Source: Bugula neritina (Eukaryota; Bryozoa; Gymnolaemata; Cheilostomatida; Bugulidae). From it: 64,000 nucleotides of DNA. The position numbers and the translations under genes are program-made. The notes under the pieces are model-generated. The model had not been told where the DNA came from. It saw only the letters and a program-made list of their open reading frames with translations, and made no database searches. The DNA lies in NCBI GenBank assembly GCA_964035545.1, contig OZ037773.1:8210751-8274750 (forward strand), in the 5' to 3' direction. This document shows positions 11,001 through 35,200 of this stretch, one piece after another (position 1 is the stretch's first letter; every line of letters begins with the position of its first letter).

Positions 11001-14000
11001 GTCATCAACTTAGACAATTGTGAATCTCATGCCATCTAATGGCTAATAAATTAAAAATTCACAAATCCTGTCACACAACTGCAAGTTTTCCACTGTATTA
11101 AGAGCAACTTGCTAGTTTGAAATGCTTCAAATTAATAATAGATAAACACAAATAATCATTATTATCAATGCCATTATCACTAATTCAAACTTTTATATAT
11201 GACTGTTGCCTTTAATATATGCTGTTGTTTATCAATTATTTGTGATGCATTAGAAATTGTCTTCACTTTTGCTTCTATGAATTTTACAGAGCTGATTCCA
11301 GGTAAAGTTAGTTTTTATATTGTAATCTTGTCGTAGAGATTTTTTAAATTTCTGATTAGTGCATCGATTTCTTGATCATGAATTTCTCATCTGTTTGATT
11401 TGTTCTGTTGTTAGTGAATGTTGGGAGTTGTTCACTTTCGGAACCAGTTAGAAAATATTTGAAAAATAAATTGATCTCAAATTAAGTACTACCTCATAAA
11501 CATGTTTAAATGTTTTTCATGCAAATATATTCAAACTGTATAAAAGTATAGGGAAATTAAGCAGAAGAAGAGGTTAGCATCTATACAACTATTATAGTAT
11601 GTTTCATGGCTCAAAACTTCTCATGCAACAAATTATTTACAAAATTTTGAAAACTGCCACTAACAGTTTAAAATTAATAGATTATTATTTTACTTGATGA
11701 ATTTTTATAATCATGAATAGCTGATTGAGTAAAGTTTTTACTTGTTTGCAGCTATATAAAATTTCTTATTTTCTAATTGCTGGTATTGGCTGGTTGTTAG
11801 TTACTAGTTACTAGTTGCTAGTTGCTAGTTGCTGATTGCTAGTTACTAGTTGCTAGTTGCTGATTGCTAGTTACTAGTTATTAGTTGCTGATTACTAGTT
11901 ACTAGTTGCTGATTGCTAGTTACTAGTTGCCAGTTGCTTGCTACTAGTTACTATGTAACTACTGATAGCTTTTTGCTAGTTACTGCCAAGTAAGAACTTC
12001 TTATGGATCTCCTATGATTAAAGTTTCTGCTCTAAGTCAATCCTATCCATTATGAATGCTGTATATTTCTGTTGTGATTTTATCTTTCAGTATAATAGTA
12101 GTATGTAGAAAATACTGAAAAGTAATTTCAAGTTTGATTCACACCTCAATCTGTATGACATTTCATCATGGATGTTCCAAATGGAAAGACACCATATTAT
12201 TTCTGGCAGTTTTTGGACTGTTGTCTGCATACATATTCAGTAACACATGTTTGTTGTTAACTAATAGTACCTTCTGCTGTTTAGGCTCAGTGTATGACCG
12301 TGAGTATCTATTCAATGCCTAATCAGCTTGCGTTTGGTGATAAAATATTCCTTCATGCACATCTTGTACTACGAGAAGGCAACTCCTGTTTTATATTTCA
12401 CAATACTTGTCAATTATATTTAATGTTCTAAAGGTTATCCACGCCTTATTTGAATGGCTTAAATTCTCAAGACCTAAAATCTTTGTCCAAGTAGACCTTC
12501 AATGAAGATTTCAACATTTTAATAAAATTTTATGTGCTAAAATTTGGTATTTCAGTGTTCTAAAAATTCTTGCTTTTAAAAACAAAACAACTTGCTAAAA
12601 ATAAAAGCAGACAAAGGTTGAAAGCTTTAGTGAATAAGTTAAAGCTAGGATTGCAGCATAAGTTAGATATGCGAACAAAGTTGCTGTAAAAACTGACATG
12701 CAATTTTATAACTTTCTTTGGCATATTGGCAAAACAAGTGGAGATGTTTTGAAGGAATATTATTTTACTAAGATAAGCAGCGAGAGTGCAAGAAGTGTGG
12801 TAGGAAGAGTATACAACTACTAACTTTGAGTAACTCATAGCTATCAAAGTGATAATATTGAGTGAGTGTTTATAGCTATCAAAATGATAATATTGAGTGA
12901 GTGTTTATAGCTATTGAAATGATAATATTGAGTGAGTGTTTATAGCTATCAAAATGATAACAGTGCAGTGCAGCTTTAGCCAGTGCAGCTTATAGTGCTT
13001 GTTTGGTAGTCTTTTCTTTAGCACTTGGTTTCTACTAGATCATTGAATATAGTCAGGTCTGCACTTTCAACTCTTGCATCACATGTGCACGATTATGTTG
13101 TGTAGAGAATTTAGGAAGATGGTGGATGGTTGGCTAATATCATTTTAGATAGAAGATAGTAGTTTATAGCATTCGATGGCTTTCATGAAATTTTGTTCGA
13201 ATTTCAGCTAGCAATAGTATTTAAAATTAAAATTTAAATACTTCAATTGAGGTTGCTGACTGACCTTGAACTTTAGAAAGTATTTATGGCATCAGGTCGA
13301 CTGCATGTAAAATCACATTTTGGCTGCATTTTGATTGGACAGTTTCATTGCTTATTGGTTTCTTTCCAACAGCCTATAATTATATTGATATCTAGTTTTT
13401 ATTGTATTAATTGGAGCAAAATGTTTTTTTGTACAATAAAGACATCTAGTTTTAGCTGAAGTGGATGAAGAGGGAGTGTTGATGATGTCACTTCCTTTCA
13501 TGTTTCGCATGATAATCTATGATTCCGTTACTTAATGTGTTGCTCAAACACTTAAAAGAAGGGAAATAATAATATTATTTCCCTTGGTATTTTAAGTAAT
13601 GTGTGTATATTATACACACATTACTTAAAATATCAAACTGCTTTAGATTACCCACATTTTCAAGACAACTTGTTGGAAGTTGTTACATAAAACTTTTGAG
13701 AAATTAGGCTATAAGTAGTCAAGTTACTATAGTCTTTCCATCTTTGATTCCAGATCTCCAATCTCTGTAAGGTTTAACAGCCCCAAAGTTACAACACATT
13801 GTGTAACCACTCTACATTATGACTATATAGCTTATTTAGGGTGTAAACCTGTTGAATAGAATGGATTACAAAATGTAAAACAGTATATAAAGGAAACCAG
13901 CATAGAGTCTAACAAAATATCAACTTTTAGACTTGAAATACGAAAGCTGTGTGGCAAGGCGTGAGTGTTACCAGACAATACCAGACATTGTCTGCTGTTT

Positions 14001-17000
14001 CTACATGCCTTCGATGACTAAGATATGCACTAAGGCTAAGTGTGTTCTATTTAGTGGTGGCCACTACAGAAGACCCGCAGCTAACGGAAGTGTTTTTCGA
14101 GCCCGCTCACTACACGGTGATGGAGAACGTAGGATCCATGGAGGTGAGGGTGAAGAGGGCAGGAAGTAACCTCAACTCTACGCTCTGCGTCGACTACTCG
14201 ACTGCAGACGGATCGGCTAACGCTGGCTCAGACTACGAGGCCACGCGAGGTACAACCACTGTGTATACTATGTAGTAGTACTGTGTGTACTATGTGGTAG
14301 TACTGTGTATACTATGTAGTAGTACTGTGTATACTATGTAGTAGTACTGTGTATACTATGTAGTAGCACTGTGTATACTGTGTAGTAGTACTGTGTATAC
14401 TATGTAGTAGTACTGTGTATACTATGTAGTAGTGCTGTGATATGTAATGTATACTATACAGGTACACTCACGTAATGTATACTATACAGGTACACTCACG
14501 TTCGGACCTGGCGAAGTGTACAAGACCTTCAGTGTTGCCATCATAGACGACGACATCTTTGAAGAAGATGAACACTTCCTTTGTACTCTATCAAACCTCA
14601 GACTTGCAGAGGTCAATGGTGAGTTTAGAGGTCACTTATGCATCAAATACCGATCTGCCACATTACTCTCAGAATACAACGAATGACTATATAGTGTATT
14701 TAGGTTTAGATCAATTTATTAGACATGAGATTTCTTTAGATCAATTATAGAACAATCTATAGAATATGGTTATATGGAACTTTCCTTTAGAGCAGTTATA
14801 GATTTCTCTATGAAATGTGAAGACACATTGTATATTTCCCTATAGACTACAACTGTATTAGCCTTGTTTTCTGTTATGATTTACAGGGACGATGAATAAC
14901 TCTGACAACTTAAACCTAAAGAACTTTCAACTAGGAACTCCTTCTACGGCTACTGTAATGATTCTAGATGACGATCATGCTGGAATATTCCATTTTGAAG
15001 GTGTCTCTATATGTTGTATATTATATATAACATTAGATGTATTATATAACATTAGATGTATTATATAAAATAATATACAATATAATGTATATTATCTAAT
15101 ATAATATATACAACATAACATAATATTTATTGTATAACATAATATATATTATCCATAGCAGATTCTTACCGTAGAAATATTTCTATGGGCCACGGTCTAA
15201 ATTATACATAATAAAGTATATACATATATAGACTGTGTTCTAGAATATGACTAACTCTGTGTAAACTGTGTTTCAGATTCTGATCATGAAACAGTGGAGT
15301 CGATTGGCCAGCTGCATATCAAAGTACAGAGAAGCTCTGGTGCCAGAGGTCATGTGGCGATTCCCTTCAAGACCATTGACGGCACGGCCAAGGCTGGTAC
15401 ACATTTCAGCGCTACCAGCGGGGAAATAATCTTTGCAAATGATGAGCATGAGTAAGTCACAATCATGAGTAATTCACTAATCATGAGTAAGTCACTGATC
15501 ATGAGTAAGTCACTATTCAACATCAAGTCACTACTTATGATTAAGTTCTCAATAATGAGTATAAGTTACTGATCATGAGTAAGTTTCTAATCATGACTAG
15601 TGACATATGAGTAAAGCCACTATTCACGAAAAAGTTATTAAAATTATGAGTTTTGTTTGATAGCATAATTGCTATTCAAGCTTTCTGAGAACAAGCAAAA
15701 AAAGCCTTCAGCTAAATAGCCAATATTTTACAGTAGATACTGTTTTCACTCTCTCTGTACTGAAAATCAAAATATATTCGTCACAATCTTACAATGAGTA
15801 ACTTACTACTCATAAGTAGGTCCCTGATCATGAGTAAGTTACTACTCATAAGTAGGTCCCTGATCATGAGTAAGTTACTACTCATAAGTAGGTCCCTGAT
15901 CATGAGTAAGTTACTATTCATGACTGTGTATATAGACAGATCTTGCTTGCAAAGTAAGTGTGTTTTATGGATTGTATTATTATACATATTGTCTTATTTT
16001 CTTTTCTAGTAAATACATAACTGTAAATATCTTTGATGACGAAGAATATGAAAAGAATATAATATTCTACATTGAGCTCGGGGAACCTGTACTTGTAAGG
16101 ACTGCGGCAGGTAATATATTTATCATCATTATATATTATGTATATATTACATTTTAGTATATATTATCTACTACGCATATATGAGTTATATTATGCTCTA
16201 TGTTATATTATAATATACATAATATATATTGTGTTGATATAATATTCTTTATATTTTGCAATATATAGTCATCTTGTGTGCTCATAAGCGCAACTTAGTT
16301 TTTTAAATCTCATTCCGAATTAATATATATGTGATTAACTGTTTTTAAAAAAGTTTGTAACTTCAATATAAAAATTTATTCCTGGCTCGATTTCTCATGC
16401 CATTAACTCCGCATTTCCACTAAAATGCAGCTTAGAGTATGGTACTACCACCTTCAATGCGGCTTCTTATAACCTGAAGATTCCTCTGGCCTCCTAACCC
16501 AAATATTGTCTGCATAAACCTTGTCCATCTGCAGCTGTATATATGCTAAACTCTTAGCATTTGAAATATTGTACCTGCTACTACATATGCTATTTTTTAC
16601 AGCCATCCCTTCAATACTAATAAATATTATCCAACCTGTAATACAGCTTTATCAGACAAGTCTCCACAAATTGCTTGCAGTATCAATAGCAAAAGTTGGT
16701 TGTGATTGGGTGGCAAAATAACAACTCCTCTTGTTAGGAGTAGTAGGTTTGCCTACTAAGTACTTTGATGAACATAATGTCCAACATTATGTAGCAATGT
16801 TATTTTAGAGTTGGGACAAAATTTGAAGAGTTTTTTAAATTTTTCTCACTGTATAGTTTTTACGCTTCTTCTGCCACACTAAAGCTAATTAGTTATAGAT
16901 TATATAATAACATAGTATGTTATAGTATAATATATGCGATTAATTTGACTACACAAAGCCATTGATTTAGCGGCACTAGTGTAGACATCCTGTATTTGCA

Positions 17001-24504: not shown

Positions 24505-27500
24505 TTATGGCAAGACTTTCCCAGGATTCATCAGGCCGTGTGGATCAAGCAAGTGTTTGATTTGCTTCATGAGTGAGACGGAGTCAGGCCCAGCTTCTCG
24601 GACTAGATATTTCTTCTTACCGAACCCCGTCCCATGTTCCCCGGTGCAAGTGCCGTTCAACTCCAAGGCTCGTCTGCAAACCATCCAATCATAAACGTGA
24701 TAACAGAACTGAGTTTTAGACTTGGTTCTGTCTAATTGACTCTCACAATAATGACAATATGACAACTATGAAAGAGGCACATTGTCTCTTCTCATTGAAA
24801 TATTTTCAATGATCAGAAGGCAAAGCATGGTCAGCTACATGTGAAATAGTATCATAATGGCCGGGTTACATACTCTACTCATACATAGAAATATTCCCAG
24901 CACAATAGCCGGCCCACATAACCTACACAGGAAACATGGCCGGACCGCATAGAAAACACCCCAAGAATATTGGCCGGGCCACACACTCTATATTATGTTA
25001 CTGAAACAAACTTTCATAAACTTCAAAACTTTAGTTAAGACAAATCATTCCTCGCTTAGACTTAATATAATTTTTCTCTGGTGACTAGGAATTGCAGCTC
25101 ATAAAGATATGCCATGTTTTCAGATGAATCTGTACAATAGCTAAGAACAGTATCTGTACATACAACATAAATCTTACTCAACGATTCTCTCCGACAGCTT
25201 GCCCACTAATTGCGTTTCTGATTCACTTCCCGTATCGTATAGAAATGTAACATGATAGTTACCATCTCCAACATGGCCGAGAATGTAACCTACAAGTTAG
25301 AACACGTAAAGTGAGTTACCTGACAAAGGTACATCTATCAAACTGAAACATAATCTCGTAACACAATTTGGTAGAAAATGTGTGTAAGTAGTAACGGAAT
25401 ATGAAATGAGGAAGGAATTCATTACAGGACACATTTCATAGCCCACTGTTGGGAGAAAAATGAATGAAATAATAAATTACTAGCCATATTATACTTGTCT
25501 ATGCTACGATGGTAAGATAACTGACTCAATAATTTGGTTATTCTGTTGCTGCCCTAAATCTATACCATCTATAAATCCTATACAATATATACAATATATA
25601 GAGTATACAGTGTATACAATCTATACAATATACAGAGTATACAATGTATACAATCTATACAATATACAGAGTATACAATGTATACAATATATACAATATA
25701 CAGAGTATACAATGTATACAATCTATACAATATATAGAGTATACAATGTATACAATCTATACAATATACAGAGTATACAATGTATACAATCTATACAATA
25801 TATAGAGTATACAATGTATACAATCTTATAGAGCATAAACTCATGTTAAGGTTGTCTTAGCTGCCACCAATAAAGGGCAGCACACAACTGAGCTGAAATA
25901 TGTACTCTGCACGAAGTGGGACGTGAAAAGGAAACAGTTTTGACCTTGAACTAAGAAATCTCACCTCTGTCCAAACACTGTTGAATCACATGACCAAATG
26001 CTCAGGTCTACAATAGGTTACTAAGAAACTCACCTGGTAGCTTGTGCTCCTTCAAATCCTTCTCCGTATCTGTTACGGCTTTGGTTAGTTGAGAGATGGG
26101 CACACAGACGTCAGTTGATAACTGGGTAATCTGTGTAATATATATTGTAACGTGACTGTCATATGTATTAGAATGTATGGAGTATAGTGTAATAAAGCAA
26201 CTGTCATTCAAGATGACAGTCTTATAACTGTAGTGACGTCATTTCAATTACCTGGGGACCTGGGCGAGTGGCTAGAATAGCATAGAGGGTGTCGTGTCTA
26301 GCCTTCCACAACCTGTTCCTTTCACTGAGACTAGAAGCCCATTGAAACCCTGAGGCTCCGGCATCAGCAAAAATATCACCTACACAAAACGCACAGTACC
26401 CCATTACTGCACTTTATTATTGGTTAGAGCGCTTGCTTAGTAAACATGAGGTCATGGGTACGAACGCCGACAAAGGCCATTGGTGATGTTAGGAAGATCA
26501 TCCAGTCATAATTGCTCCCGTGCTTCATCTGACTAAGTCCTTAGCCTGATTTAACAAAAACCTGTTCCATCACAAGTTCTCACAACTATAAACTGAGGTG
26601 AGTTTATTTATAAATAGAATTACAAACCAGAATAATTAACAATACTGCTAGTTACTTACAGAGTTACAACCCAGACTTACCAACAATACTAGCATCCTCT
26701 TCAGTTTGTTTCTCACTCCCATGAAATTCTATAAATATTGAGGGCTTTTCTTCATAAGAGAGTTTAGAGTAAGAATTTACAGCTCTAATCGTGTCGGCAC
26801 TCAAGAGCTCTACAAAATATCCTCTCGACATTATATGACAATAGTAATAGCCTCGCTACTGCTACGCCACACGTACCTATCCTCGCTACTGCTACACCAC
26901 ACGTACCTACCCTCGCTACTGCTACACCACACTTACCTATCCTTGCTACTGCTACACCACACTTACCTATCCTTGCTACTGCTACACCACACTTACCTAT
27001 CCTCGCTACTGCTACACCACACTTACCTATCCTCGCTACTGCTACGCCATACATACCTATCCTTGCTACTGCTACACCACACTTACCTATCCTCGCTACT
27101 GCTACACCACACGTACCTATCCTTGCTACTGCTACACCACACTTACCTATCCTTGCTACTGCTACACCACACTTACTTATCCTTGCTACTGCTACACCAC
27201 ACTTACCTATCCTCGCTACTGCTACACCACACTTACCTATCCTCGCTACTGCTACGCCATACATACCTATCCTTGCTACTGCTACACCACACTTACCTAT
27301 CCTCGCTACTGCTACACCACACGTACCTATCCTTGCTACTGCTACACCACACTTACCTATCCTTGCTACTGCTACACCACACTTACTTATCCTTGCTACT
27401 GCTACACCACACTTACCTATCCTTGCTACTGCTACACCACACTGTAGAACTTGCAGGACAGCTGTCACGGCACTCTCAACTTCATCAAACTGACACACGG

Positions 27501-30500
27501 CTGAAGTCATCTACAAGGACAACTAATGAGTATACAGAAGTGTAATCACCACCTGAGCCAGCGAATTTTCTAGTTAAATCTGTGGTCTTTTCTAATAAAT
27601 ATGCTAAATCATATTTATTTTATAAAAACTCCCACGGGTTTATAGTCACTATATCTGTGAGAAGCCCGGATGGAAAGGGTTTTTTTAAATCGGGCTGAAG
27701 ACTTATTCATATGTGGCACAGGAGCAATTATAACTGGATGCTCTTCCTAACATATCCAATGACCTTCACTAAAGATCAAACCCATGATTTTGGGTCTACT
27801 AAGACAGCACTGTAACCTTAGACCACGGCTATTACATATTCTATAGTTAAGTTAAAACTATAAACAGGGAGTTAATTCAACTTTATTTATGACTACTACT
27901 TTTAGCCAGTTATTCAGTTTCAACTATGATACAGCTCCGACTAATACTAAAATTTCAAATTCCACCGGCTTTCATTGAGAATTATGATTTTGAGGCTTGA
28001 TAAACACTAGTTGCAATATTCTATCACAAATGCTTCTGACCCAACAACTAGACAACAGTACAGAGACTAACAAAGTACATAACTCTGCACGTCTTAAATG
28101 GCAGGATACAGAGAGAGAGTAAGTAAAAGAGCAGTACCGTGTCTGGAATACCGTAGAGTTTCAGAGTGGCTGACGTAATAAATCCAAGAGTTCCTTCTGA
28201 GCCGACAAACAGATTGGTGAGGTTGTAACCCGCTGAGCTTTTGCTAGAGTAAGACACAGAAAGTAACTAGTACTCACAGTAACTAGTACTCACACAGTGA
28301 CTAGTACTCACAGTGACTAGTACTCACAGTGACTAGTACTCACACAGTAACTAGTACTCACAGTGACTAGTACTCACATAGTGACTAGTACTCACAGTAA
28401 CTAGTACTCACACAGTGACTAGTACTCACACAGTGACTAGTACTCACACAGTAACTAGTACTCACAGTGACTATTACTCACACAGTGTGGCGACCTTGAC
28501 CTGCTGTATGTATTACGGTCCCATCTGAGAGGACAACTTCCAAATTGCGGACATTTTCCCTCATAGTGCCATATCTGACAGCATTAGTGCCAGAAGCACT
28601 AGTGGCAGCCATTCCGCACAGACTTGCATCAGCACCGGGATCTAAATTACATGAAAACCTACAGAAACGAGAAACAGTGTTGACTGTATAGGATAGTGAA
28701 ATCTGTCTACAGCTGGGAAACACTTTCAATATTCAGACAGCAGCGGAAAGTTACTAGCAACGTTCAGATACGTCTAGCTGGCAATTATGCTGCCACTGTG
28801 CCAGGAATAACTTATTGAGTTGGATAGCAACAAGCATAGAGCAACAATCTGAATCTTTGAATTTATTGTCTACTCTTTGTCTTGTACTCTATCAAAATAT
28901 CAAAAATGGTTACATCCTGTACAAAAATATATACCTAAGAAGCCTTCAAATAATATCAACAAAAACAAAAACCTTAAAATTATAATGCCACTTACAAACA
29001 TCAGCTTTTTAGAACGTCTTCCTGGCAAGTGAACTATTAACACTTATAATGCAAACAAAAACAACATAACGAAAAGCCCAAAAAATAGCTAAATAAACTA
29101 CAAAAAGCTAACGCATACTTTCATTAAAATACTGGGCAAACAGCCAGGATTATCTCCCTGGCACAGCCACTACCTGAGTCAGAAGTATAGGCAGCACTGG
29201 CAGCAATTTAAATAGTTATGTTAGCTAACTCACTACATGTATATAGTGACTTACAGCAGACACACAGCAACAACAGAGTTGTTCATTCAATCATACTCAT
29301 TGTGTTGGCTATTTGTGACAAAACTAAAAGCAAAAATTTCATTTAAACTTGTTCATAAAGCAGAGCATCATTTCTTAAACTTGGCGAGCCAATGAAAAGT
29401 AAGACACACCAACAGGAAACCAGAGTCCATCTCCACGGAGGTACTCATTGAGAGCAAGTCTTGTCACGCCAGGTTCTACGCACACAGAGAAATCAGCGGG
29501 TTGGTACTCTCTAATCTCCGCCATTCTGCTGAGGTCTACACTGACTCCGCCCTGAACACCCAACAGCACACTAAACACCAGTTCAGAGCTCAAGTTTACA
29601 GTCACTGCTAATTATACTAGATATTGACTCACGTGTGTGCAAACACAGCCCCCCTCCATCCCTGTTCCAGTGCCAAAAGGCACCATAGCAACTTTCATGT
29701 CGGTACACACTTTAGCTACATTACTGACTTCCTGTATGTTACTGGGGAACACCACAATGTCGGGCATCTGTGCTCTAACGACATAAATATCTCACCTTAT
29801 TGCACGACCAATTCATACCTGTGTGTAAGCTATGAGCATAAAAGTTGAAATGTCAAAAATATGCAAAACGGTATCATTAAACTATCAATTTAATACCGTA
29901 TACTTGTCATGGTGACAAATCATAGTCGAATACAGACTCATACTAACTCGGCTCATATTTTTATCATCAATGATAGCTTAGATATTCTGTTAGTTCGTGT
30001 TTTGTCACACTAACTTAACATCAGAAATAAGCCCTTCCACCCGAATAAAGACATACTTGTGTGCGAGTTAATTTAAATGGCTTTGAAATAAATAGGGCTA
30101 ATGTAGGATACAAACTTGATTTAATTATTTATAGAGCAACTAGCGTACTCGACATGATACGACTTCAATTTGAAGTCCTGCTACTAATACATATCATTGA
30201 ACAAAGAATCCTGTAACAACAAATTTCGGAGTTGTTTACTCAAGATAGAGAAATCAGTCTAACCTATGGTGGGACTCATCCTTCCCGTGCTGTAACCTTG
30301 TAGATTCAGCAGTTGAAATATTCGGTGGTCCAACTACTTCACAAAGCCTTTCTTTCAATACCTAAAGGTGGAACACAAATAAAGAATACATGAATCGATC
30401 ATAATGATACTATAAATATTATCAGTATTACAAATAAAATATAGTTAAATTAGTTTTTGCAGAAAAAACTAACCTGTAAGTCTTCGTTGTTAAAACTAGA

Positions 30501-30656
30501 TGTCTTAGAAAAAAAGCGTTGCGATAATGGTAAGCTAAAGGGTTTTATATGAGCATAAAGTGAACGATTGAAATTGTTAAAATTGGAACTGAAATTAAAT
30601 GGCTGCTTAAAAATAACTTGCCGATATCTAGTAGACCAGCTGAAACTAAAGCGCAT
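24505..30656 (-). CDS. LDHD: D-lactate dehydrogenase (mitochondrial, FAD), complete, 12 exons, 519 aa
   Basis: FAD-dependent oxidation of D-lactate (and related D-2-hydroxyacids) to pyruvate in mitochondria. Exons in transcript order: 30656-30474, 30361-30264, 29774-29633, 29551-29410, 28641-28482, 28243-28138, 27510-27417, 26809-26681, 26379-26252, 26130-26034, 25289-25178, 24673-24505. They total 520 in-phase codons; human LDHD is about 500 aa. Residues 1-55 are rich in Arg, Ser and Phe without acids, a mitochondrial presequence ending near [11 protein letters not shown]-binding motifs: [40 protein letters not shown]. The C-terminal cap has [17 protein letters not shown] and [11 protein letters not shown], with the conserved histidines present, and ends [13 protein letters not shown]. 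The exon ending at 27417 is followed by about 19 further in-frame copies of its own end and donor, so the protein may vary by multiples of ten residues. Neighbours give no functional link. Confidence 0.95.
25580..25826. repeat. 34-bp TATACAATGTATACAATC repeat (LDHD intron)
   Basis: About seven copies, with interruptions, inside the intron between exons ending at 26034 and starting at 25289; not adjacent to a splice site. Confidence 0.95.
26420..26605 (+). mobile_element. tRNA-derived SINE, copy C
   Basis: Starts in box A (GGTTAGAGCGCTTGCTTAG), box B slightly decayed (GGTACGAACGCC), then the family body and a shortened tail. It is 5' truncated by a few bases. It is inserted in an LDHD intron, antisense to that gene. 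Confidence 0.85.
26851..27443 (-). repeat. 30-bp minisatellite made of an LDHD exon end plus its 5' splice site, 20 copies
   Basis: On the coding strand each unit is TGTGGTGTAGCAGTAGCAAG followed by GATAG|GTAAG. The copy at 27443-27421 is the genuine exon end (residues CGVAVARI plus the split Glu codon), with donor at 27416. Nineteen further junctions follow at 30-bp steps down to 26877. All keep GT: 11 read GGTAAGT, four GGTACGT, two GGTATGT and two AGTAAGT. Thirty bases is ten codons, so every donor joins the next exon (acceptor at 26810-26811) in frame. Confidence 0.95.
27624..27833 (-). mobile_element. tRNA-derived SINE, copy D
   Basis: Reverse-oriented copy in an LDHD intron. The tRNA head ends at about 27833 (GCCGTGGTCTAAGGTTACAG on the minus strand), box B is decayed, and the body and tail match copies A and B. 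Confidence 0.85.
28262..28481 (-). repeat. 16/18-bp array of GTGAGT donors after an LDHD exon
   Basis: On the coding strand the exon ends CACACTGT|GTGAGTAATAGTCAC, and the intron continues as copies of ACTGTGTGAGTACTAGTC in 16- and 18-bp versions, giving 13 GTGAGT sites in all. The exon-proximal site (28481-28476) gives the conserved protein. Other sites would add residues and often shift frame. Confidence 0.92.
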
Positions 30657-32207: not shown

Positions 32208-35200
32208 TTAGAATACATATGGAATGATCCTGTAGGGCACCTTCTTGCAGTAGGAGTCCCACGCCAATCCATATTTCTGTTTACAATACGCTTCATCACG
32301 AATCTGCCTGTGCACCAGGAGTATGAAGAAGTATATGGGGTAGAAGTAGGGGAGGAGATGGGTCGTCCCTGAAATATTCACATTATGAAATAATACCACA
32401 TACTATTAAAGTTCTACACTATAATATAATGTATTATTTAAGTACTATACTATAATATATTAATTAAGTTCTATCAACTCACCACATGTTAGACTCCAAG
32501 CCGTAGCCATAAGAATATCTCCCAGATAGTTGGGACGTCTGCAAATGCCCCAGTAACCAGCACAGAGGAGCTTTTTCCCTGCTGAGGTAGGAATAGTGGC
32601 TAAGTGGGCCACTGATGAGTCATTGGGGTTGTTACGGAACACATCTTTTTGGGAGTTGGCTCCCCGGAATATTATGTAACCAGCGGCTAAGAATAGAGAT
32701 GAGGTGAGAGTAATATATATGACTACAGAGAGCTATAGTAATATATATGACTACAGAGTAACACAGGAATAGCATGTAATACCTTTCACTATGCCGATAG
32801 CCACCAATCCATAGACATTGCTCACTGCTAACTCGGGGAAGTTGTAGATAAAATGAGCCTGGAGTGTGTAGAGAGCTGGAACCCATGCTAAGTCTCCAAA
32901 AGCTAACATGAAGCCAAAGCCTTCCGTGATGATGTCCATCGTGGTCAGAATTGAGGACTAGTAACATGTAAATGCTCACAGTGAAGGTGAACATAAAGAT
33001 AAACAAAGTTTTATAAATGCATAAATTTAATTATACAAAAAAGAAATTATGTAAAAGCATTTAAGCATTTATCTGAGCTAAAATGTCTGTTGAGGTAATT
33101 AGTTCTACTATGAAGAGCCAAGAACTAAAAACAGATTCTTTTATTTTACTAGCTTGTGTTGGTGTATCTATTTACTATGAAAATGGCGCTAAGTTTTGAC
33201 CTTGAGCATATATTAGGTCAAGGCCAAATATCAGTAAAATAAATAAAATGTTTGTAGCACAACTCTCTGTAATAAAACGTCAGACTACCTCATGTTTCAG
33301 CGCATCAAACACGTAAATAGTCTGGAATAGAGTAACCAAGGCTAGGGCGGGGGTGACGCCCCCGCTCTGCTGGTACTGGCTGGCACACAGACTCCAGTCT
33401 ATCAACATCCAGCCAATCAGACCAGGTCTCAGCTCGCACATGAACTTCAGGTCCAAACTGCCTACTCGGGGGTTCAGCTCACGTCCCATAAAGAAATCAT
33501 TAAACACAGAGCCTACAACACCATAGTTTAGTAGGTACAAGAGAGAAATAGAACTCATTGCCTTCTTACGCCACATGGAGCAAATTTCTGCACCAGATGC
33601 TAGCAAGCTCTTGGCACAGGGGGCAAAGGTAGGCTGAACAAGTTCTCATAGTAGCAATCTAATTGACTGAGTCCACTTTTGTGTTTCAGTTTTACGCTTT
33701 TATTTCAACCACAGCCAGATACAATTAGCATTTCATTGCTGCTACAATTTCGCATGTAAAATTCTACTTCATGTGGCTTAACCTTTAATATACAACAAAC
33801 CAATTAGACAAGTGACAAGAATCAGAGCCATGTATGCAGACACTGACAAGCACCTGTGCCAAGTGTCAGACAGCAGATATGGCATGCTTAGTGAAAAGTG
33901 AGTTGACAACTTTCACAGTTACAGAATACTTAACCAGACAGGTCTGCACTGAAGCTAAGTTAATCATACCTGTAGCCTCGGGGGCTAGTTCACTGTCGGG
34001 GACATAGAGGGCGTGTATATAGAGCCCCACAGCCAACACAAAGGAGTATACAATGCTAGCAGTGACAAACTGCAGCCAGTGCTTGGTTATGTAGTCCATG
34101 GGGGCACCTTGATAGAGTGCCACAGCAAATATCAGAACAGAGATGAGGAGAGCCAGGAAACCTACAAGATAGGCATAACATTACGTGCTCTGTGTGAGGA
34201 AAGACTATCATAGCAGGACAGTGTGACAGTAGATTGTTGTCATCTCCAGCTGTGGTGAAGCTTAATTTAAATGGCATTGACTTTGCATATATGAGGGGGA
34301 GGTGAGAACGTAAAGTATGCGTGTGCATTTTATTGTTTATCAAATGGTGCTATTCCAGGATACTCTAGTTACTACTATATCTCATAGTATTCTAGTATAT
34401 TATATTATATTACAGTATATTATAGTATATTATATGACATTACAGTATATTATATTACAGTATATTATAGTATATTATATTACATTACAGTATATTATAT
34501 TATATTATAGTATATTATATTACATTACAGTATATTATAGTATATTATATTATATTACAACATATTACAGTATATTACATTATATTACAGTACAGTGTGA
34601 GTTTATATTCAGCTAAAATGCTCCAGCAGTTGAATATGCAAATGAAAGACATCATGAGTGGAAGAGGGACATAAAGCTTGTATTACATAGCTAGAAGTAG
34701 ACCCTCAGTAACTAACCATTGCACCTGTAGAGAAGCCTCTTTCCACCTTTGAGCGGCTGCCCCATCACCTGGGGGCCCACAGGCAGCAGTGCCAGAAGCA
34801 CCTGCAGCAGGTACCAGCTGAGCACAACTCCAAACACTTTCACATCAAAGTAGTCTTTTATATCCATGGAGAAGGAAGGAAGTCTGGTGATAACACAGCC
34901 ATTTCTCTGTGGGAGAAAGTATACAAACAGGGGATGACAACTTCACACAGACTAAAGGAGGCAAGAAGTAGTTACAGCTGTGAATATCTGGGATCTATTC
35001 AATTGCTGACATTATACACCACACTAGGTTAGCACTTTACCACCACAACTACTACCACAGCTACTGTTACCATACCACTGTTATTATTTGGTAATAAGAT
35101 TGCTTGGATTTAAAGTAGATATCAGTTTATTGGTAAACGTGTTGCAGCATTTGTATAAGCAAGAATGACAATCTAGGTAGGAAACGACATCTACCACCAC

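Follow-up and report, generated by a model that had tools for sequence, protein, structure and literature searches.

A tandem repeat of an exon end and its 5' splice site in the LDHD gene of the bryozoan Bugula neritina

The LDHD gene and its surroundings

The window, that is, the whole stretch of 64,000 nucleotides of Bugula neritina DNA analyzed here, harbors an LDHD gene on its minus strand. The coding region (24505..30656) consists of 12 exons and encodes 519 amino acids when the first donor of intron 5 is used. Coding exons 1-4 lie at 30656-30474, 30361-30264, 29774-29633 and 29551-29410, coding exons 5-8 at 28641-28482, 28243-28138, 27510-27417 and 26809-26681, and coding exons 9-12 at 26379-26252, 26130-26034, 25289-25178 and 24673-24505, all on the minus strand. 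The labels exon 5, intron 5 and exon 6 used below follow our own numbering, in which "exon 5" is the seventh of the 12 coding exons. Exon 5 (27417..27510, minus strand), placed by comparison with homologs, ends in ...CGVAVARI-G in phase 1, and exon 6 (26681..26809, minus strand) starts with AG CTC at 26809. With the first donor, intron 5 (26810..27416, minus strand) has 607 nt and its acceptor AG is at 26811-26810. The Glu that follows ARI at this junction is nearly invariant among 26 aligned proteins, and it is restored by the split codon G/AG across the join of exons 5 and 6 (here and below, a slash marks the splice site).

The closest proteins come from B. neritina itself and from Watersipora subatra. 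The predicted LDHD matches the B. neritina protein P0001 at 91% (BLASTP) or 97% (multiple alignment), and the W. subatra LDHD P0002 at 66% identity. Solved LDHD chains match at 1.4e-161, the family homology is full-length, and P0001 carries PF01565 and PF02913. The original prediction had recognized this gene and its strand correctly, and the end of exon 5 at 27417, the start of exon 6 at 26809 and the acceptor at 26811-26810 were also found where it had placed them. P0001 runs CGVAVARI-E, with the repeat described below absent. Its junction corresponds to an in-frame inner acceptor within exon 6, with the first exon base at 26728, and by joining there it loses 27 residues that are kept in the other aligned animals. 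P0001 is consistent with use of the first donor, but it is weak support, both for the difference at its next junction and for its probable origin: the B. neritina draft gene set is described as AUGUSTUS predictions with transcriptome hints (PMC7576161), and we infer that P0001 belongs to this draft.

Other elements were seen around these exons. An exon of an ERG4/ERG24-type sterol reductase lies at 32208-32402 of the window, on the minus strand. Intron 4 of LDHD contains a short dispersed element (27590-27696) with at least 40 further matches in the genome, at 79-92% identity. Intron 6 contains a candidate that we take to be a tRNA-like SINE head (26420-26470); ARAGORN reports no tRNA.

The intron-5 array and its reading frame

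A 30-bp minisatellite (26851..27443, minus strand) lies across the end of exon 5 and its donor. TRF gives 19.8 copies with period 30, 94% matches, 0% indels and a score of 1025, in agreement with the 20 repeats in 30-bp register previously proposed. Each unit combines 25 nt from the 3' end of the exon with the 5 intron nt that follow, and the repetition runs from 27441 onward. In the 20 units read on the minus strand, GT is kept in 19 (27441 down to 26872), so that the 19 candidate donors in one phase were confirmed unit by unit. The first donor GT (27415..27416, minus strand; ATAG/GTAAGTGT) is probably the one used. It is followed by 18 more donor-like GT sites at 30-nt spacing (26875..27386, minus strand), from 27386-27385 down to 26876-26875, and by a 20th, decayed edge unit in which the GT is lost (26842..26871, minus strand). 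The donors are of four types, 11 ATAG/GTAAGT, 2 ATAA/GTAAGT, 4 NTAG/GTACGT and 2 ATAG/GTATGT, and the 19 are similar in strength by eye.

Units 2-8 are letter-identical to units 9-15, a block duplication of 7 units (210 bp). Units 1-19 have 0-3 mismatches to the consensus and unit 20 has 9. Variable bases make up 3 of the 10 in the donor stretch and 3 of the 20 elsewhere in the unit, and thus there is no sign of constraint on the donor stretch. The unit was also considered as a dispersed repeat or transposon, and this was rejected, since its 20-base core occurs outside the array at only 3 places, each time with 2 mismatches.

Joining any of the 19 donors to the acceptor at 26811-26810 gives one open frame (19/19), with predicted proteins of 519, 529 ... 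699 aa and introns of 607 down to 67 nt. Both the ten-residue steps and the range of intron lengths agree with the original prediction. With donor 2 or 9, the residue after the junction would be Lys in place of Glu. The openness of this frame needs no selection: 25 of the 30 nt of the unit come from exon codons and are read in the original frame, stop-free by descent because the period is a multiple of 3, and the phase-1 donor reads GGT AAG (Gly-Lys).

In the predicted structure of the Watersipora LDHD (mean pLDDT 80, with a mean of 91 for the block around the junction), the junction Ile273/Glu274 lies inside a beta-strand (272-276). An insertion of 10 to 180 residues at this point would probably be harmful, as it would split the predicted strand. 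No repeat-bearing protein was found at E <= 0.001 in two database searches (7995 and 7996 candidates scored), one of which had a length window that shut out full-length LDHD proteins; this absence is weak evidence, since such transcripts need not be in these databases.

Splice-site arrays elsewhere in the window and in the genome

A second donor-spanning array, missing from the original prediction, is present in intron 3 of LDHD (28262..28487, minus strand), with 18/16-bp units around ACTGT/GTGAGTACTAG. It is unrelated to the intron-5 array, is built from the intron's own donor (ACTGT/GTGAGT) and fills most of the 238-nt intron (28481-28244); splicing from its next donor would introduce a stop. 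On the plus strand, the end of a Calx-beta exon is spanned by an 18-bp donor array (15447..15596; CATGA/GTAAGTCA, GT at 15452), and a similar array is found in the same intron at 15794-15921. An acceptor is involved in one case, a 28-bp duplication of 2.1 copies (14444..14501, plus strand; TATACTATACAG/GTACACTCAC) at the Calx-beta intron 14250-14489, in which the protein stays open with the exon-proximal copy alone, the outer acceptor leading to a stop.

This 240-nt Calx-beta intron is nearly all tandem repeat. Within it, 14258-14439 was rejected as a donor array, as it begins 8 nt past the Calx donor and the donor is not inside. Also rejected were 12837-12960 of the window (GTGAGT x3), where no adjoining exon was seen, and 415-643 of the sample L025, an array with GTGAGT that is antisense and lies upstream of a frame presumed to encode a reverse transcriptase.

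In a random 200 kb, with upstream frames judged by eye, 1 of 21 arrays spanned the donor of a named exon. It is in the 10-kb sample L026, where 45-bp copies of PAIIHC-AG/GTAGGT come after a protein-tyrosine-phosphatase (PTP) exon. The PTP sample comprised 21 exons, among the matches listed, whose profile match ends at 177-180 (150 of 285 candidates scored); L026 was already known, and the other 20 were fetched by this profile end alone. Donor arrays occur in 6 of the 20 fetched exons and are lacking in 14. The six are five C1 neighbors of L026 and L049, which has an unrelated 26-bp unit. In the six paralogs of the C1 cluster (L026 and the five neighbors) there are 3-9 units per array, and sister genes thus differ in array length. 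GT is present in the first donor of all six and in 20 of the 24 later donors. Reading on past the first donor gives IIHCR-stop, and this stop falls inside the PTP catalytic signature. Within a paralog the units differ from one another no less (3.18 of 45) than they do across paralogs (2.84). Clusters of PTP exons, which look like a lineage expansion, were seen in C1 (3.97-4.23 Mb), C6 (8.02-8.43 Mb) and parts of C3 and C5, with at least 153 matches among those scored.

Donor 16-mers had at least two downstream near-copies in 11 of 33 introns, namely LDHD introns 3, 5 and, weakly, 6, the Calx intron and seven PTP introns, the PTP donors having been placed one base too far 5' so that their 16-mer is off by one base; this is not a genome rate, because part of the set was picked for its arrays, LDHD intron 5 being the finding itself and LDHD intron 3, Calx and L026 having been spotted as arrays. 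Acceptor 16-mers had at least two upstream copies in 0 of 31 and one copy in 2. The Calx-beta acceptor duplication is outside the 33-intron set and counts against a pure donor rule. In shuffled trials, donor-junction 16-mers with at least two downstream near-copies arose in 0.09%, and the LDHD donor array is not a product of chance.

Genome-wide, AGGTRAGT repeated three times at tandem spacing is found 3574 times, and the reversed word 95 times. A scrambled word gave 93 matches, and the reverse of the scramble, GTARGTAG, gave 2771; the latter includes GTAAGT when R=A and hence is not an independent control, but it does show that tandem words rich in G, T and A abound in this genome. In 264 kb, GTRAGT runs rank 13th of 180 permutations, and GTRAGT is present in 6 of 46 arrays, where shuffling gives 2.4 +/- 1.4 and at most 7. 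As these controls are mixed, the motif counts are not taken as proof of a genome-wide class.

The initial 100 of these 3574 matches, those listed, belong to 14 arrays within 8.6 Mb from the start of C1, and the flanks of each array were fetched. At 6 of these arrays the first donor ends a recognizable coding exon: ITPR (4e-24), PUF60/half-pint (1e-22, a fragment below the curated cut-off), caspase (1e-9), OATP (9e-7), MCT (3.5e-6), as well as an Ig match that stays under the Pfam cut-off. In the caspase array only the AG of the exon is common with the unit. At 3 arrays (L059, L060 and L068) the frame is open but unnamed, and two of these frames gave no match in further searches either. At the other 5 (L058, L061, L063, L067 and L070) no exon was evident, as judged by eye. 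Scaling up points to some hundreds of donor-array loci, with a wide error.

The consequence of skipping the first donor was compared across 14 donor arrays; three lie at the unnamed open frames of L059, L060 and L068 and the other 11 at named exons, the weak Ig match included. The next donor would lead to a stop or a frameshift in 12 of the 14 (the stop in L059 was read off the sequence) and stays open only in LDHD intron 5 and ITPR. Among the 14 motif-listed arrays, 4 have periods that are multiples of 3, about what chance would give. As the first donor alone gives an intact protein in most of the genes compared, it is simplest to assume the same for LDHD.

Origin of the array and comparison with known systems

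We interpret the LDHD array as a minisatellite of the mirage type, discussed below for amphioxus, of which the 5'-most donor is used, and we give this reading a probability of about 80%. The end of the exon would have been duplicated in tandem together with its 5' splice site, and the array would then have expanded by slippage or unequal exchange and become partly homogenized. The spliceosome would take the donor at 27416, the other 18 donors would leave with the intron, and the enzyme would stay at 519 aa. What was observed is that the units are repeated with their donors intact, that a block of them was duplicated, that the far edge has decayed, and that other exon ends carry like arrays; the Calx-beta acceptor duplication agrees with the choice of the exon-proximal site. 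The good state of the downstream donors may reflect the youth and homogenization of the array, and not selection. Choice of the first donor could depend on exon definition, upstream exonic enhancers or the order of transcription, although this is a guess. As far as the sequence tells, the mechanism is ordinary, an expanding minisatellite that engulfed a splice donor, and the array is probably a harmless stutter ignored by splicing.

The sequence by itself does not forbid other donors in intron 5, as these look similar and all 19 joins are open. A leaky choice as in IFI6, where the first few downstream donors would be used at a minor level and yield isoforms of +10, 20 or 30 residues with no special function, is the strongest competitor, though still an unlikely one. 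It would fit the similarity of the donors, their single phase and the absence of stops, and it has a precedent in human IFI6, where donors in two of the downstream units are functional and three mRNAs arise (PMC4526556). However, a repeat-bearing protein was not found among the scored candidates, the insert would split the predicted strand, and the mirages of amphioxus are reported not to interfere with splicing (PMC3087553). The original prediction went further and saw in the array a VNTR that couples splice choice to protein length, so that array length and donor choice together would set the length of LDHD as a functional and variable trait. The 30-bp period, the phase 1, the 19 donors and the open joins led in this direction, but an open frame is largely automatic in exon-derived units, use of the next donor would disrupt the protein in 12 of the 14 arrays compared, the periods are not enriched for multiples of 3 (4/14), the predicted strand would be split, and the repeat-bearing protein did not appear in either search. 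The coupling is not supported, and we regard such a trait as very improbable.

Even less credence is given to a cluster of donors kept for a role at the RNA level, for instance in recruiting U1, in the efficiency of splicing or in switching transcripts between a productive and a dead form. Donor arrays do occur at several genes, and most of the downstream donors would yield stop-bearing or shifted RNAs; against this, the later donors decay in the PTP paralogs (4 of 24 lost) and 14 of the 20 fetched PTP introns have no array. An assembly error behind the array is unlikely, and an artefact of assembly or consensus is to us the least plausible of all the readings. The exact duplication of a 7-unit block could mark a misjoin, but the genome that holds the window, tzBugNeri2.1, is a HiFi assembly of about 132-fold coverage and QV 53.7, with an alternate haplotype deposited (PMC11480708). 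The array, of 593 bp, is far below the mean HiFi read length (about 9.7 kb, by our own division from the assembly figures), and similar arrays are present at unrelated loci.

For the genome as a whole, we see an even chance that B. neritina has a class of hundreds of introns that start with 3-20 tandem, near-perfect copies of the 5' splice site of their own exon, the exon-proximal one being consistently taken and the introns growing from their 5' ends. What is unexpected is how often such arrays seem to have arisen in one animal. They seem to provide a natural series for the choice among equal 5' splice sites, with near-identical donors at fixed spacing, and include the PTP sister-gene arrays of differing length as well as arrays where a wrong choice truncates the protein. 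If the downstream donors are silent, position alone would be the rule; if they are used, these loci would make variable proteins or dead RNAs.

Mirage minisatellites of amphioxus were reportedly described by Canestro et al. in 2002. According to PMC3087553 they are tandem repeats over exon-intron boundaries, found in Adh3 (unit length 10-72 bp), globins and other genes, and AG/GT signals are present in many. PMC3087553 and PMC3902484 add that their interiors are homogenized with the edges excluded, that their length is unstable, and that regular splicing is undisturbed, as seen by RT-PCR for the globins. The LDHD array is similar in that the repeat lies over an exon-intron boundary with the GT signal in 19 of 20 units, and in its homogenized interior (units 2-8 equal to 9-15) and diverged outer edge (unit 20). 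The variation in length seen in Bugula is between paralogs, in the PTP arrays of 3-9 units. Amphioxus mirages are found at both boundaries, whereas those of Bugula are mostly on the donor side in the introns examined (11/33 vs 0/31, plus one acceptor duplication). Further differences from amphioxus are the bryozoan host, the 19 donors in one array and the signs of many arrays in one genome. A search of the open-licence PMC literature, not specific to LDHD, found no report of a mirage array in a bryozoan, and a mirage in this group, with signs of wide spread in one genome, is apparently new.

A splice-donor minisatellite in human IFI6 (6-16) is said to have been described by Turri et al. in 1995. 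As in LDHD, a minisatellite supplies many donors at one exon end in IFI6, but there the downstream donors are reported to be in use (PMC4526556), and the gene is unrelated. In the model of Rogers, named in PMC3087553 (see also PMC4974935), a tandem genomic duplication that carries AG/GT proto-splice sites gives rise to a new intron. The LDHD array shares with this model the tandem duplication of a splice-site sequence. In contrast to intron gain, it is an existing intron of LDHD that appears extended at its 5' end, and such donor arrays show a route by which introns may be lengthened from this end.
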